From NCBI GenBank assembly GCA_015231955.1, contig JADGAN010000001.1, positions 124,001 to 188,000 on the forward strand: a stretch of DNA of 64,000 nt, in the 5' to 3' direction. Made by a program: the position numbers and the translations under genes. The stretch comes from Oligoflexia bacterium (GTDB taxonomy: Bacteria; Bdellovibrionota; Bacteriovoracia; Bacteriovoracales; Bacteriovoracaceae). Within the stretch, counting starts at the first letter, position 1; every line of letters begins with the position of its first letter. This document shows, one piece after another, positions 12,887-52,576 of this stretch. A model generated the notes under the pieces. It ran no database searches. It was not told where the DNA came from and saw nothing but the letters and a program-made list of their open reading frames with translations.

Positions 12887-14107
12887 ATGGACATCAAAGC
12901 AAAACTCACTGAACGATTTGTAAAATATGTAAAGATCGATACCACTTCTGATCCCGACTCTACCACCTACCCCAGCACCCACAAACAATTTGATCTTGCT
13001 AAACTCCTGGTGCAAGAACTACAAGACCTCGGTATTAAAGATGCTGCCGTAGATGGGCACTGCTACGTCACTGCTACCATTCCTTCTAATTTAAGTGGTG
13101 GTAAAAATGCTATTCCCACCATCGCCTTTATCGCTCATATGGACACCTCCAATGAAGTACCTGGAGAGCACGTCAAACCACAAATAATCTCTCCTTACAA
13201 AGGCGGGGACATTGCGCTTACTTTTGGCCCTGTCATAAAGATGAGTGAATCGCCTTCACTCGAAAAATGCATTGGCCACACTATTATCACCTCTGACGGG
13301 TCCACTCTTCTTGGCTCTGACGATAAAGCAGGAGTGGCAGCTATCATGACAGCAGCAGAGTACCTGCTTAAGCATTCCGAAATCAAACACGGTGATATCA
13401 AAATCGCTTTCACTCCCGACGAGGAGATTGGTCAAGGTGTGAAGTATTTTGATATTAAAAAATTTGGCGCCGATTTTGCTTATACCATTGATGGGGGCAT
13501 GTATATCAACAAAGAGACCTTCAGTGCCGATAGTGCCGTTATTGATATCGCCGGAAGAAACATCCACCCCGGGAAGGCCAAAAATATCATGGTTAACTCC
13601 ATCAAAATTGCTTCCGAAATTATCACTCGCCTTCCGATTCATATGGCGCCTGAAAAAACTTGTGACTATCAACCATTTATTCATCCCATCGATTTGAATG
13701 CAAACGTTGCTGCTGCAAAAATCAAATTCATCCTACGTGATTTTAATGATGAAGGTCTTGTTGTGCAAAAGAAAATTCTCGAAGATATTATCTCAACTGT
13801 TTCCAGAATCTATCCCGAGGCCGCTATCCATTTAAAAACCGCACCGAGCTATCGCAATATGCGAAAAAAACTTGAAGCAAATCCAACAATCCTTGAGCGT
13901 CTTGACTCTGCTGTTAAAAAAGCAGGTGTCAATCTTCCCTTTACTCCCATTCGTGGTGGTACCGATGGCTCTGCCCTTACCGAGATGGGTCTTCCTACTC
14001 CCAATATTTTTTACGGTGGCGAAAATGCTCACGCTCTCACCGAATGGCTCTCTATTGATATCCTAGAAAAAAGTGTCCTCACAATCATCAATATCGCTGA
14101 AAATTAA
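12887..14107 (+). CDS. pepT: Peptidase T (tripeptide aminopeptidase)
   Basis: Cytoplasmic zinc aminopeptidase of the M20 family that removes the N-terminal residue of tripeptides. The 406-residue length is typical. Seen are the metal-binding motifs FIAHMDTS, LLGSDDKAGVA, TPDEEIGQGVKYFD, YTIDGG, and near the end IRGGTDGSALTEMGLPTPNIFYGGENAHALTEW. A ribosome site GAAGGGGC precedes the ATG. It lies 32 bases after the ThiF-like gene and may be read with it. In a predator it would suit breakdown of peptides from prey, but it is also a general housekeeping enzyme. Confidence 0.95.
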   Translation: MDIKAKLTERFVKYVKIDTTSDPDSTTYPSTHKQFDLAKLLVQELQDLGIKDAAVDGHCYVTATIPSNLSGGKNAIPTIAFIAHMDTSNEVPGEHVKPQIISPYKGGDIALTFGPVIKMSESPSLEKCIGHTIITSDGSTLLGSDDKAGVAAIMTAAEYLLKHSEIKHGDIKIAFTPDEEIGQGVKYFDIKKFGADFAYTIDGGMYINKETFSADSAVIDIAGRNIHPGKAKNIMVNSIKIASEIITRLPIHMAPEKTCDYQPFIHPIDLNANVAAAKIKFILRDFNDEGLVVQKKILEDIISTVSRIYPEAAIHLKTAPSYRNMRKKLEANPTILERLDSAVKKAGVNLPFTPIRGGTDGSALTEMGLPTPNIFYGGENAHALTEWLSIDILEKSVLTIINIAEN

Positions 14108-43017: not shown

Positions 43018-43033
43018 TGGTCCTATAGGACCA
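43018..43033. repeat. GGTCCTATAGGACC palindrome, intergenic copy
   Basis: The perfect 16-bp palindrome TGGTCCTATAGGACCA lies between the mnmG stop and the rsmG start. In RNA it would form a six-pair stem with a TATA loop. Two more copies lie inside mnmE. Confidence 0.85.
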
Positions 43034-45008: not shown

Positions 45009-46484
45009 CTATTTGCCAATACAGAAATTATCAAAGATTGATTTCAACACATGGTCAGGAGAGACAACACCAATAAGCTCAGAAATATCTTGACCAATTA
45101 AATCAACAATAGTGGCTGCAACTGCAAAATCAATGAACTCATCGACAGATTCCACACCTATAACACACAACTTTTGAAGCTCCAAGGTGTGTTTATGAAT
45201 TTTCCGTATAAGCTGCCGATGCCGCTCCAAAATGATAGGACTCTCTTTGGTAATAAGAGCGTATTTTGCAAGCAACAATTTCAAAAACTCCTCACTAAAC
45301 TCTGGTCCTATAGGACCAACAGAGACAGCAGTACCACCCATCGCCGGTCCTATAGGACCACACAATAATAATTCGTGAAATTTTATTTTAGAAAGGTACT
45401 CTTTAAACGATTGCTCAGAGGTCTTTTTTGTAAAATTTTCCTTATCATTGTGGGTGAGCACCAAAAGATCAAAGGTAATTCCAGCAAAATCCTTTCCGCT
45501 ATCACCGCCATTAGCTATATCAAAAGGATTTAGCACCAACACTTTAAAAAAAGCATTTGCCACCACATCTAGGCTTCGCTTAATTCCCTCTTGCTCAATC
45601 TCACCCGTTAAATGAGTAGCTCGAATACCAGCGGTATCGATCAAGCGAAAATGTTGCCCTCCCTCTACAAATAAAGATTCACTCACATAATCCCTAGTTG
45701 TGCCAGCAACAGGGGAAACAATCGAGCGATTCATTCGAAGTAAGCGATTAAATAAGGTACTTTTTCCTGCATTGGTTGGACCGACAAATACTACATCAGG
45801 GGAGTGTAGATAGTTGATTGGCGCTAGTGCTCTTTGGTAAAGCGATTTCATCGCTAGTGTAAATGCTAAGAAATTATTTTTAAAAATTTCCAACCCTTTT
45901 TCTTCACCCACATCCTCAACAAAATCGATATTGATCTCTATCGACACGCGTAGCTCTTTAAACCTTTTCTCTAACTCTAAGTAAGATCGATTAACCTCTC
46001 CTTGAAGGATCCCTTGACCTTGCTCTAATACATAGCTTGAGGTCGCATTCAATAAAAGATCTAATCCTTCAACTTGTGAAAGCGTTAACTTGCGATTTTT
46101 TAAAGCACGATAAGTAAATTCACCCGCGACTGCTGGTCGGATTTTTCCCTCTGAACAAAAGAGCTGCAAAACTCTTTGAACGTTGATGCGATTTCCATGA
46201 ATAGAAAGTTCTAAAATATTCTCTCCATTGTAACTGTGGGGGGCCTTGAAAAAAGTACCAAGAGCGCTATCAACCTCTTCACCCTTAGAAGAGTATTTTC
46301 CAAGTTTATCCACAATCATCGTGTAAAAAACTTTCCTCGGAATAATTTTTTCCACTGGACAAGAGAGAAATGGAACAAGTTCACTTAAATCGGCAAACCC
46401 CGATATTCTGACAACGGCGATTGCTGCTGAACTAGCAAGAGAAGAGCTACATGCAATAATAGGATCATCGCTAAAGAGGGCCAT
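45009..46484 (-). CDS. mnmE: tRNA modification GTPase MnmE with altered G4/G5 motifs
   Basis: GTPase partner of MnmG. The 491 residues have the N-terminal folate-binding domain (ARTPG-like start SSLASSAAIAVVRISG), a helical domain, the G domain with G1 VGPTNAGKST, G2 GTTRD and G3 DTAGIRA, and the catalytic C-terminal FCIGK. The NKxD motif expected for guanine specificity reads THND, and the SAK (G5) region reads VSVGPIGPEF, where a repeated 14-bp palindrome encodes GPIGP. Another copy of the palindrome encodes GPIGP 13 residues earlier. The first base overlaps the yidC stop (TAATG), so the two are coupled. Confidence 0.93.
   Translation of the reverse strand: MALFSDDPIIACSSSLASSAAIAVVRISGFADLSELVPFLSCPVEKIIPRKVFYTMIVDKLGKYSSKGEEVDSALGTFFKAPHSYNGENILELSIHGNRINVQRVLQLFCSEGKIRPAVAGEFTYRALKNRKLTLSQVEGLDLLLNATSSYVLEQGQGILQGEVNRSYLELEKRFKELRVSIEINIDFVEDVGEEKGLEIFKNNFLAFTLAMKSLYQRALAPINYLHSPDVVFVGPTNAGKSTLFNRLLRMNRSIVSPVAGTTRDYVSESLFVEGGQHFRLIDTAGIRATHLTGEIEQEGIKRSLDVVANAFFKVLVLNPFDIANGGDSGKDFAGITFDLLVLTHNDKENFTKKTSEQSFKEYLSKIKFHELLLCGPIGPAMGGTAVSVGPIGPEFSEEFLKLLLAKYALITKESPIILERHRQLIRKIHKHTLELQKLCVIGVESVDEFIDFAVAATIVDLIGQDISELIGVVSPDHVLKSIFDNFCIGK
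45303..45318. repeat. GGTCCTATAGGACC palindrome, copy 1 in mnmE
   Basis: The perfect 16-bp palindrome TGGTCCTATAGGACCA, identical to the copy at 43018-43033. It is read in mnmE as GPIGP within the G5 region. Confidence 0.85.
45346..45359. repeat. GGTCCTATAGGACC palindrome, copy 2 in mnmE
   Basis: The 14-bp core GGTCCTATAGGACC in the same frame as copy 1, again encoding GPIGP, 28 bases away from it. Confidence 0.85.
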
Positions 46485-49110: not shown

Positions 49111-50562
49111 ATGGACGATAAAACCACCCACTCCAAAAATTTTCCCTTTACTCACTTTATGGATTTAAATGCTCCTCAAATTGAAGAGGAGTTGCTCATC
49201 ACCGCTAGCAAGAATCAAAAAGAGCGGCCACCCAAAACATCAATATCAACATCCCCACCACCCCCATCGCCAACACCAACACCGACCACACCTACTCCAC
49301 TCACACAGACGCCGACACTAAGTATAGTTACCCAAAACACCAACGATACAGCAGAGGCCGTCATAGCAACAGCTAAAAAAAGCAAAAAAGAGGCGCCATT
49401 TGGACGATTCAACTCTGTTAAAGAGGCCCGCTTTTCCATCGACCTCAATGGCCCTCCAACTCCCTTCCCCGGAATCAACACACCCACGGCAAAAGAACTG
49501 CTCTCACAAGTAGATTCAACTGTGATCACTAAACTCGAAAAATCTCATGAACGTCACCACCTTAATCCTGAGAAAAATTTTGATACCTTTGTGGTTGGAC
49601 CCTCTAATCGGGTTGCCTTTGCCACCTGCCAGAACTTTGCTAAAAATCCCACAAAATCCTACTCGCTACTCTATATTCACAGTCGCACAGGTCTTGGAAA
49701 AACTCACCTTATTCACTCCATCGCTAATTACCTAAAAGAGGCATATCCTCAATATAGAGTAATCATCGTCACCGCCCGCGACTTCATGAGAGAACTCGTG
49801 GATTATCGTGAGAAGATCCACGAGTTCAGAAAAAAATACATGAATCAAGTTGATATCCTTATGATTGAGGATATTCAAGAATTAAAAGATAGGCCTGGAA
49901 CTCAAGCAGAAATTTTTCACCTCATGAATGAGTTTCAAAGCAAAAATAAGCAGCTTATTTTGACCGCTGATCGCCCACCCAATGAAATCGTGGGTATTGG
50001 TGAAAATATAAAAAATCGTATTCTATGCGCCCTAGTGATAGACATTAAACCACCAGAATTAGAAACTCGATTAACTTACCTTAAAAACAAGACAGAGCAG
50101 GAAGATTTCTTCCTCCCTGACGATGTTATCAGAGAGGTTGCCAACAATTTCACTGGAAATATCCGTGAACTCGAAAGTGCACTCGTACGTCTTGGTGTTT
50201 TTTCTTCCGTTATGAAAGAAGATATCGATCTTAACATAGCAAAGGAGCAACTTAAAATTCAAATGGGTACTGCTAATACCAGCATCCTCACTATTGAAAA
50301 AATTGTTTTTGCAGTTTCCCGCTACTACAAAATACCCGTCGCTGATATTCGTTCTAAATCGAGAAGCAAAAAAAACATCGAGCCCAGGCATGTATCCATC
50401 TACCTCATCCACAAATTAATGCAGATAACCGTTACCCAGATTGCGCAGTTTTTCTACAGAGATCACACAACAGTAATCCACGCGTTACAAAAAATGGAAC
50501 ACCAAATCAAAGAAGATCGGGATTTATCGCAGACAGTTGGAATTATCGAAAAAACCATCTAA
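49111..50562 (+). CDS. dnaA: Replication initiator DnaA with unusual N-terminus
   Basis: Initiator ATPase that binds the boxes in the adjacent oriC. The 483 residues contain an AAA+ domain with Walker A TGLGKTH (193-199) and Walker B MIEDIQ (251-256), sensor-like NRILCALVIDIKPPELETRL, and the C-terminal DNA-binding domain with SRSKKNIEPRHVSIYL and RDHTTVIHALQ. The first 130 residues lack the usual domain I (Trp-rich helical fold) and instead hold a Pro/Thr-rich run near 48-70. No ribosome site precedes the ATG at 49111; a TATAAG box two bases before it suggests leaderless translation or that the true start is the ATG at 49159. Confidence 0.95.
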   Translation: MDDKTTHSKNFPFTHFMDLNAPQIEEELLITASKNQKERPPKTSISTSPPPPSPTPTPTTPTPLTQTPTLSIVTQNTNDTAEAVIATAKKSKKEAPFGRFNSVKEARFSIDLNGPPTPFPGINTPTAKELLSQVDSTVITKLEKSHERHHLNPEKNFDTFVVGPSNRVAFATCQNFAKNPTKSYSLLYIHSRTGLGKTHLIHSIANYLKEAYPQYRVIIVTARDFMRELVDYREKIHEFRKKYMNQVDILMIEDIQELKDRPGTQAEIFHLMNEFQSKNKQLILTADRPPNEIVGIGENIKNRILCALVIDIKPPELETRLTYLKNKTEQEDFFLPDDVIREVANNFTGNIRELESALVRLGVFSSVMKEDIDLNIAKEQLKIQMGTANTSILTIEKIVFAVSRYYKIPVADIRSKSRSKKNIEPRHVSIYLIHKLMQITVTQIAQFFYRDHTTVIHALQKMEHQIKEDRDLSQTVGIIEKTI

Positions 50563-50617
50563 CCCGTAGTATTATTTGACGCAAAATAACGGTCTTATTC
50601 ACATTGAAAGTCGATTT

Positions 50618-50637
50618 TGTATATACAATGATATACA
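50618..50637 (+). repeat. oriC 20-bp unit, copy 1
   Basis: TGTATATACAATGATATACA, directly followed by a DnaA box at 50639. The same unit recurs at 50739-50758, and in reverse orientation at 50719-50738 and 51126-51145. Confidence 0.9.
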
Positions 50638-50718
50638 ATGTGGATAACTCAAAAAAGTGTCATACATCAATAACTTACAGAGTTTTCCACAGGGTTTTCC
50701 ACAAAGTTATCCACATTT

Positions 50719-50758
50719 TGTATATCATTGTATATACATGTATATACAATGATATACA
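50719..50758. repeat. Perfect 40-bp palindrome in oriC
   Basis: Four adjoining 10-mers, TGTATATCAT, TGTATATACA, TGTATATACA and ATGATATACA, read identically on both strands over 40 bases with the centre between 50738 and 50739. A DnaA box ends 4 bases before it, and a further TGTATATACA begins one base after it at 50759. The 10-base period places each unit on the same face of the helix. Confidence 0.92.
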
Positions 50759-50794
50759 TGTATATACAAAATTCGATTCTTGTATATACAAAAT

Positions 50795-50898
50795 TGTGGA
50801 TAACTATGTGGATAACTATGTGGATAACTCAAAAATATACTAAGCTATGCTTCACCGCTTCCGAGTTATCCACATAGTTATCCACATAGTTATCCACA
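50795..50898. repeat. Inverted triplets of DnaA boxes (36-bp arms)
   Basis: Three minus-strand boxes at 12-base spacing (50795, 50807, 50819) face three plus-strand boxes at the same spacing (50866, 50878, 50890). The arms 50795-50830 and 50863-50898 are perfect reverse complements over 36 bases, with a 32-base centre. Single-stranded DNA here could fold into a long hairpin. Confidence 0.92.
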
Positions 50899-51074
50899 TT
50901 GATCTACGAATATTTATCACCAAGACACCCTCTACAATTGACAAAAAAGCACGGCATAAAAGTTATCCACAAAAACAACGCGACGTAATGTAGAAATCGT
51001 TTTTTTTGTATATACAAAATTTACCCCTCAAAGCTTGAGTTATCCCCAGCGCACAGCAAATGCGCGGCGCTCAT

Positions 51075-51095
51075 GCCTCTTTTGAGGCCTTTTTT
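51075..51095 (+). terminator. Rho-independent terminator inside oriC
   Basis: GCCTC (51075-51079), a TTTT loop, GAGGC (51084-51088), then C and six T. A second small stem, GCGCA/TGCGC (51049-51065), lies just before it. It would stop dnaA read-through or a short origin transcript. Confidence 0.7.
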
Positions 51096-51159
51096 GTATA
51101 TACAAGTTCATTTAACGCATGTGCTTGTATATCATTGTATATACAAGTGCATCTCTGTA

Positions 51160-51312
51160 TGTGGATAACTATGTGGAAAACTCTAAAAAATGTGGATAAC
51201 TCAAGAAATATCCGAATGAAAAAAAGTTATCCACAAAGTTATCCACATACAATTGTGGATAACTTTTGATTATAATCTATTGAAATGATTATACTTTCTT
51301 GAGTTATCCACA
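51160..51312. repeat. dnaN-proximal DnaA box cluster
   Basis: Six exact boxes at 51160(-), 51191(-), 51227(+), 51239(+), 51254(-) and 51304(+), plus near-match TGTGGAAAA at 51172. The last lies about 10 bases from the AT-rich stretch, the position expected of boxes that start melting. Confidence 0.85.
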
Positions 51313-51320
51313 TTTCCACA

Positions 51321-51371
51321 GAACATTATTATTAATAAAGAAATATATATATATTAAAAAAGAAAAAAAAA
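51321..51371. other. Candidate DNA unwinding element
   Basis: An almost pure A/T run including ATTATTATTAATAAAG and an alternating AT tract, next to the last DnaA box at 51304. The ATTATTATTA triplets could play the role of DnaA-trio-like elements. Location and composition fit a melting site; this is inference. Confidence 0.6.
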
Positions 51372-51451
51372 GAGATGCCTCCCCCTCTTACACAGATGAA
51401 AAAAAATTGGTAGAAACTTTTTTAGGCCCATCTAACTGGATAAGGATAAGT

Positions 51452-52576
51452 ATGCACATTGTTATAAACAGCTCCCACTTACGTGACAACTTTAGTAAAC
51501 TTTTATCCATCGTGGATAAAAAAGTACCCAGACCAATTCTTTCTTATTGCATGATAACCGCCTATCTTGAAGATAATACCATTGAAATGATCGGCTCGGA
51601 CTCGGATGTAAATGCCAAAATAAAAATTAAAGCAGAAGTTTATCGCACAGGAAGTTTTTGCATTCATGGAAGAAATTTCTCAGAAATCCTTAGAGAGATA
51701 CCATCTAATGTGCCCATTAACATGGAGATTACTGAACAAAACAATCTTTTAAAAATAAGTCACAACGATCTTCGCTATTCACTCCTTATTTTTAGTACAG
51801 AAGATTATCCTACGTTGCGCTTTGATTCGAGTGGAGACCATTTTGTAACCAAGACTCAAATTCTACAAAAAATTATCAACAAGATCTCCTATGCAGTTTC
51901 TCAAGACGATACGATGTCCTTTTTAAGTGGGATCTTCATTCAAAAAATAGGTAATAAACTTCGTTTTGTGGCCACTGATGGACATCGCTTAGTTTTAATC
52001 GATCACACGGATCCAGAAATCAAAGGGGAACTGTTAGAGGAAGGAATTATTATTCCTAAAAAAGGGTTGAATGAGATAAAAAAATTATCAGATTCTTCGC
52101 TTGGCGACTCTCTTGAAATTTTTGTGGATAACTCTTTTATTTATCTAAAAGTTCAAGACAGCTACCACTTAACCATTCGTTTAATGGCCAAACAATACCC
52201 ACGTTATCAAAATGTCATTCCCAGTAAGACCATTCAACGAATTGTCATTAATCGCCAACAATTTCTTACGGCCGCCAAGCGATTAAGGGTGCTTGCCAAT
52301 GAGGAAAACGATGGTATTAATTTTCAATTTGAAAATGACTCCATGACTTTCTTAGCTCAAAACCACTCTTTAGGTGCCGCTACCGAAAAGATACCAGTGC
52401 TCTACAAGGAAAATCCAATTGAGGTTTGTTTTAATATCCGCTATCTCATTGAAGCAGTCTCTGTTATCGATGATGAAGACTTCTTCTTGGAATTTAACAA
52501 TGAACTTGGACCTTTTGTAATTAAAATGCAAAGTATGCCTTATTTTTTAAGTATCATCATGCCCATTAAACGCTAA
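51452..52576 (+). CDS. dnaN: DNA polymerase III sliding clamp (beta subunit)
   Basis: Ring-shaped processivity clamp. The start is the ATG at 51452, with AAGGA five bases upstream; the reading frame is open further left through oriC but that part is not protein-like. The 374 residues have the three-domain clamp pattern: FSKLLSIVDKKVPRPILSYCMI, FSTEDYPTL, FVATDGHRLVL, and the C-terminal MPIKR resembling the usual MPMRL. Confidence 0.97.
   Translation: MHIVINSSHLRDNFSKLLSIVDKKVPRPILSYCMITAYLEDNTIEMIGSDSDVNAKIKIKAEVYRTGSFCIHGRNFSEILREIPSNVPINMEITEQNNLLKISHNDLRYSLLIFSTEDYPTLRFDSSGDHFVTKTQILQKIINKISYAVSQDDTMSFLSGIFIQKIGNKLRFVATDGHRLVLIDHTDPEIKGELLEEGIIIPKKGLNEIKKLSDSSLGDSLEIFVDNSFIYLKVQDSYHLTIRLMAKQYPRYQNVIPSKTIQRIVINRQQFLTAAKRLRVLANEENDGINFQFENDSMTFLAQNHSLGAATEKIPVLYKENPIEVCFNIRYLIEAVSVIDDEDFFLEFNNELGPFVIKMQSMPYFLSIIMPIKR

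Follow-up and report, generated by a model that had tools for sequence, protein, structure and literature searches.

A bacterial replication origin loaded with probable RHH antitoxin operators

Between dnaA and dnaN, the chromosome of an Oligoflexia bacterium carries DnaA boxes together with a second family of repeats built on the 10-bp palindrome TGTATATACA. The locus raises the question of which protein recognizes these repeats and whether that protein acts on replication initiation. We analyzed a 64,000-nucleotide stretch of the genome (hereafter, the window) and compared the repeats with the rest of the assembly and with other genomes of the phylum. The results bear on toxin-antitoxin systems, whose purpose on chromosomes is a matter of long-standing dispute.

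Repeat architecture of the origin

The genes dnaA and dnaN bracket the array-bearing interval (50563–51451). DnaA boxes in oriC number at least 18, and the second repeat family lies amid them; TTATCCACA boxes occur 15 times in the oriC region, versus 0.69 expected across the whole window. GC skew changes sign around 48–52 kb, which very probably marks the dnaA–dnaN interval as the working origin. Given its flanking genes, clustered TTATCCACA boxes, and GC skew, the interval is a credible oriC. Its elements, in window coordinates, are as follows.

49111–50562, forward strand: dnaA
50618–50637, forward strand: operator unit TGTATATACAATGATATACA, a full palindrome plus half-site in 10-bp register, ending 1 bp short of a DnaA box
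50683–50715, forward strand: DnaA-box triplet with 12-bp spacing, left of the central array
50719–50758, no strand: perfect 40-bp palindrome of two abutting 20-bp operator units, with core TTGTATATACATGTATATACAA
50759–50768, no strand: fifth contiguous 10-bp unit, TGTATATACA
50781–50790, no strand: TGTATATACA copy, 4 bp ahead of the next DnaA-box triplet
50795–50827, reverse strand: DnaA-box triplet with 12-bp spacing, right of the central array
50866–50898, forward strand: DnaA-box triplet; together with the one at 50795 it makes a perfect inverted repeat of 36 bp
51007–51016, no strand: isolated TGTATATACA (TTTTGTATATACAAAA)
51095–51104, no strand: TGTATATACA at the T-run of a terminator-like hairpin
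51126–51145, reverse strand: 20-bp operator unit in the opposite orientation (TGTATATCATTGTATATACA)
51160–51312, no strand: right-hand DnaA-box cluster, ahead of an AT-rich stretch (about 51320–51370) and dnaN
51452–52576, forward strand: dnaN, start set by eye

An earlier, sequence-only reading of the window had described this family, and its inventory proved accurate. All eight exact copies of TGTATATACA were found at the starts it gave (50618, 50729, 50739, 50759, 50781, 51007, 51095, and 51136), and the four variants with a TGATATACA half are located at 50629 and 50750 on the forward strand and at 50719 and 51126 on the reverse strand; TGATATACA has one further copy in the window, at 13500. 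The 20-bp unit occurs twice per orientation (50618–50637 and 50739–50758; as the reverse complement, 50719–50738 and 51126–51145), and the 40-bp palindrome is indeed perfect. Across 50719–50768, five 10-bp units follow one another head to tail without breaking the 10-bp register, and this central array is wedged between the DnaA-box triplets at 50683–50715 and 50795–50827.

Dinucleotide shuffles of the 64 kb give an expectation of 0.04 copies of TGTATATACA, versus the 8 seen, and a Markov model of oriC itself yields a mean of 0.008 copies with a maximum of 1. The whole 5.6-Mb genome holds 9 exact copies; at that genome-wide density, the dnaA–dnaN interval would be expected to contain 0.0014. 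The sequence-only reading would have counted equally dense clusters throughout the genome against itself; the confinement of eight of the nine exact copies to oriC favors that reading. Promoter-like sequences show no excess in oriC (4, versus 6.5 in shuffles), which argues that the oriC copies are not ordinary gene switches. Nor do they have a toxin-antitoxin gene of their own, unlike the ninth copy, on contig C36, which overlaps a plausible promoter of its operon.

The repeat as a probable antitoxin operator

The ninth TGTATATACA is followed, 23 bp downstream, by a gene for a BrnT toxin (Pfam BrnT, E = 1e-26). Behind brnT is a gene whose small product is of the BrnA/CopG_antitoxin type but falls below Pfam cut-offs. 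The AlphaFold model of this product has the helices of a ribbon-helix-helix (RHH) protein and is similar to Arc, CopG, and a number of RHH antitoxins, with Foldseek probabilities up to 0.99 yet weak E values (>0.05). The site is again a pair, TATATACAATGTATATACAA, with its units spaced by 11 rather than 10 bp, and the promoter that it overlaps is a plausible one. Further RHH genes were found on contigs C53, C48, C19, and C51, the one on C53 being unrelated and near a ParA-like gene. In the assembly, which lacks about 5% of the genome, no TGTATATACA was found upstream of the other brnT and RHH genes (C67, C19, C53, C48, and C51). Because the sole exact site at a promoter is that of C36 brnTA, this operon provides the first candidate for the binder.

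Related genomes link the site to the same gene family. Among 57 of them, six further brnT genes (two in G027 and one each in G056, G031, G040, and G023) are closely preceded by an exact TGTATATACA, making seven cases with C36 versus about 0.001 expected. Some brnT operators consist of TGTATATACA followed 10 bp on by a half-site (TGTATATACAATGGCATACAA, TGTATATACAATAGAATACAA), the same layout as the oriC unit TGTATATACAATGATATACAA, and the BrnTA operator TGTATATACAATGGCATACA of locus L092 matches the layout of the oriC unit at 50618–50637. The site also tracks the predicted DNA-contacting strand of the antitoxin: operators within one mismatch of TGTATATACA accompany 7 of 8 antitoxins with an I-S/N-I/L-R strand and 2 of 20 with other strands (Fisher P = 0.0002, which is indicative only because the brnT set consists of related sequences). 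Where the strand reads KTLRLD, QITIRL, or VGINL, the operator is a different one. The same holds for plasmid BrnTA systems of other phyla, which pair other strand residues with other operators (e.g., QITIRL with ACTACAATGTAGTTAC), indicating that TGTATATACA is not universal to BrnTA. Within the phylum, the pairing of TGTATATACA with an I-S-I/L-R strand aids in assigning regulators. Single exact copies of TGTATATACA away from brnT in relatives (most of L011–L039) were also considered; they are without a neighboring RHH gene and resemble chance hits or matches in coding sequence.

The doubled site TGTATATACATGTATATACA, which forms the center of the 40-bp palindrome in oriC, provides independent evidence. 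Among 368 other genomes of the phylum, nine contain it, each as one copy, and in all nine it precedes an RHH antitoxin gene of the same family. Eight of the nine have a gene for an AbiEii-like nucleotidyltransferase in between; in L127 the RHH gene stands alone, without a toxin gene. With an RHH gene behind every TGTATATACATGTATATACA, once unaccompanied, the RHH protein rather than the toxin is common to the sites. The oriC array holds both operator layouts, palindrome plus half-site and doubled site. Loci L122–L130 carry a compact toxin-antitoxin-like operon in which an AbiEii-like nucleotidyltransferase is joined with an RHH antitoxin of the CopG type and the doubled operator is invariant; L127 keeps only the RHH gene. 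No such pair was found in the host genome by a profile search whose profile included those antitoxins.

The matches at brnT and at RHH antitoxin genes imply that oriC carries an RHH-antitoxin operator array, in tandem 10-bp register and without promoters. The feature is real and unusual: an origin loaded with antitoxin operators.

Candidate binder and proposed effect on initiation

The sequence-only reading had envisaged cooperative binding by a dimeric protein at 10-bp intervals. This gains support from the match to operators of RHH antitoxins, which as a class occupy short tandem sites in dimeric form. The companion statement, that no origin-binding protein with this site is known, now narrows to a class and a candidate gene. 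Assignment of the predicted binder to the RHH antitoxin class is fairly secure. That it is specifically the C36 brnTA antitoxin is probable, with somewhat less assurance: its strand reads TAVYLRLD instead of the common TPISIRLD, and at the central position Y replaces the S or N of the other TGTATATACA-linked antitoxins, leaving the case good but not closed. Direct control of initiation by the array-binding protein is evenly balanced between true and false. The full reading that we favor, in which the second repeat family is a BrnA/CopG_antitoxin-type RHH operator array most likely bound by the BrnA-like antitoxin of C36 to modulate initiation, is about a toss-up as a whole.

One RHH dimer would occupy each TGTATATACA, and adjoining 10-bp units would be bound cooperatively, placing about a dozen dimers on each origin. 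By analogy with known RHH proteins, a BrnA-type protein could coat the five-unit center and the flanking pairs, beside the DnaA triplets. An antitoxin bound next to or between these triplets may shape or hinder DnaA assembly, hindrance being a simpler guess than help. The level of antitoxin and the toxin:antitoxin ratio would then feed into replication initiation. Several type II antitoxins change their operator affinity with this ratio (PMC4803016), so stress could reach the origin. It is possible, though less likely than not, that BrnTA senses stress and that BrnA on about twelve oriC units licenses or blocks DnaA, the antitoxin acting as a direct, built-in regulator of initiation. If true, an antitoxin with nearly all of its genomic sites in oriC would give one toxin-antitoxin system a concrete cell-cycle role that is simple to test, and a new protein class would join the short list of bacterial origin binders.

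Known systems share parts of this arrangement. The operators of BrnTA systems (PF04365/PF14384, PF12441) share the 10-mer palindrome, often with a half-site in 10-bp register; here, in contrast, the copies are many, lie in oriC, and lack promoters or toxin genes. In Brucella, the RHH antitoxin BrnA controls brnTA transcription (PMC11980606). The repressors CopG and Arc, which the predicted structure of the C36 antitoxin resembles, are RHH dimers on short operators but act on promoters (plasmid copy number and phage P22, respectively) and not directly on an origin. In Caulobacter, the cell-cycle regulator CtrA binds the origin at sites interleaved with DnaA boxes. The second site family described here is interleaved in the same manner, whereas CtrA belongs to the response regulators, recognizes a different site, and is neither an RHH nor a toxin-antitoxin protein. 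One study cites CtrA as a model for oriC control (PMC5124646).

Alternative explanations

An array of antitoxin operators might also serve as a sink. Each replication of oriC would soak up BrnA and de-repress brnTA, the influence then running from replication to the toxin-antitoxin system. An array without promoter excess suits this explanation, as does its size (about 12 units in oriC versus about two at the brnTA promoter), but a sink needs neither symmetric wedging between DnaA triplets nor contiguous register, and the layout seems to be built into the DnaA array; we consider titration unlikely. Rather less likely is recruitment of a different RHH protein, toxinless or with an unrecognized toxin, as a dedicated origin regulator sharing its operator with BrnA. 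The genome encodes several RHH proteins (C53, C48, and C19), a toxinless one with this operator exists in L127, and the strand residues of the C48 protein (Q-N-R) are like those of the TGTATATACA-linked antitoxin of L095. However, the exact upstream site is present at none of these genes and at brnTA only, which again points to the C36 antitoxin.

The array could alternatively be centromere-like, an RHH platform for segregating or anchoring the origin, as for omega at the heptad arrays of pSM19035. Omega, an RHH ParB, is likewise a dimeric regulator that binds contiguous short repeats cooperatively (binding at oriC being predicted here), and it acts at a toxin-antitoxin operon as well as in partition (PMC4803016, PMC9499535). 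A functional omega complex requires at least four contiguous repeats (PMC9499535), and the central array has five, at 50719–50768. Omega sites, though, are 7-bp non-palindromic heptads over promoters and support plasmid partition with a partner ParA, whereas the present sites lie in a chromosomal oriC with a separate ParAB: the chromosome has an ordinary ParA and an HTH-type ParB with its own likely parS, TGGTCCTATAGGACCA, and within the 3 kb examined around the C36 operon, no ParA gene was found beside brnTA. We consider a centromere-like role very improbable. Binding by DnaA, ParB, LexA, or YefM in place of an RHH antitoxin is the least credible option, for all that each is plausible near origins or on TGT...ACA-like palindromes. 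The array units are not TTATCCACA-like 9-mers, and separate consensus DnaA boxes are present; ParB needs a 16-bp site, to which tandem 10-bp units offer no fit. The sites of LexA (CTGT-N8-ACAG in Escherichia coli) and YefM differ from TGTATATACA. The core of the YefM site is TGTACA (PMC4803016). None of the four accounts for the association with brnT and nucleotidyltransferase-RHH operons.

Distribution and neighboring features

The sequence-only reading would have taken absence from the origins of close relatives as a refutation. Such an absence was indeed observed: of 29 dnaA loci examined in other genera of the family, none contains TGTATATACA, the intergenic end in relatives being set at 1300 bp after dnaA (the L050 locus ends 30 bp after dnaA). 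In the 368 other genomes of the phylum, all paired sites are RHH-antitoxin operators. So far a single genome is known to have the array, and the relatives compared all belong to other genera; its absence from their origins suggests a lineage-specific gain and not a general origin element, and conservation is unusable as a test of function. A plasmid or phage origin of the region was considered and set aside, as there was no meaningful DNA match and viral contigs lacked the tandem operator. Searches of open-access full texts brought up no account of antitoxin or RHH operators arrayed in the oriC of a bacterial chromosome, and among the matches listed for bare TGTATATACA there were only unrelated papers.

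ParB was an attractive candidate for the array because the genome has no canonical parS, but nearly the whole family lacks one too. The oriC regions of relatives do not contain TGTATATACA, the array units do not match the 16-bp parS palindrome TGTTTCACGTGAAACA or a derivative, and another palindrome, TGGTCCTATAGGACCA, fits better as parS. The chromosomal parA adjoins the gene for the HTH-type ParB, and TGGTCCTATAGGACCA occurs near both, at 43018–43033, 45303–45318, and 45345–45360 (two exact copies and one with one mismatch). These are the only perfect palindromes of at least 14 bp in the window outside oriC, and TGGTCCTATAGGACCA is likely a family-specific, diverged parS. In relatives, TGGTYCYATRGRACCA is found near dnaA in L048, with eight copies in L054.

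An Rfam search returned no match. At 51075–51098, a terminator-like hairpin with a T-run (0.3 expected) lies within oriC immediately before an operator copy and may terminate a transcript running into the origin. The DnaA boxes across 50683–50898 are arranged as head-to-tail triplets with 12-bp spacing, paired into 36-bp perfect inverted repeats. A comparable tandem arrangement, with the box altered to TTATCCACCAAG, is seen in the nearest relative (L041). In L048, the dnaA region of a genome from another genus (G012), TGACTAGTCA occurs three times shortly after dnaA and is perhaps another dimer-binding origin site.
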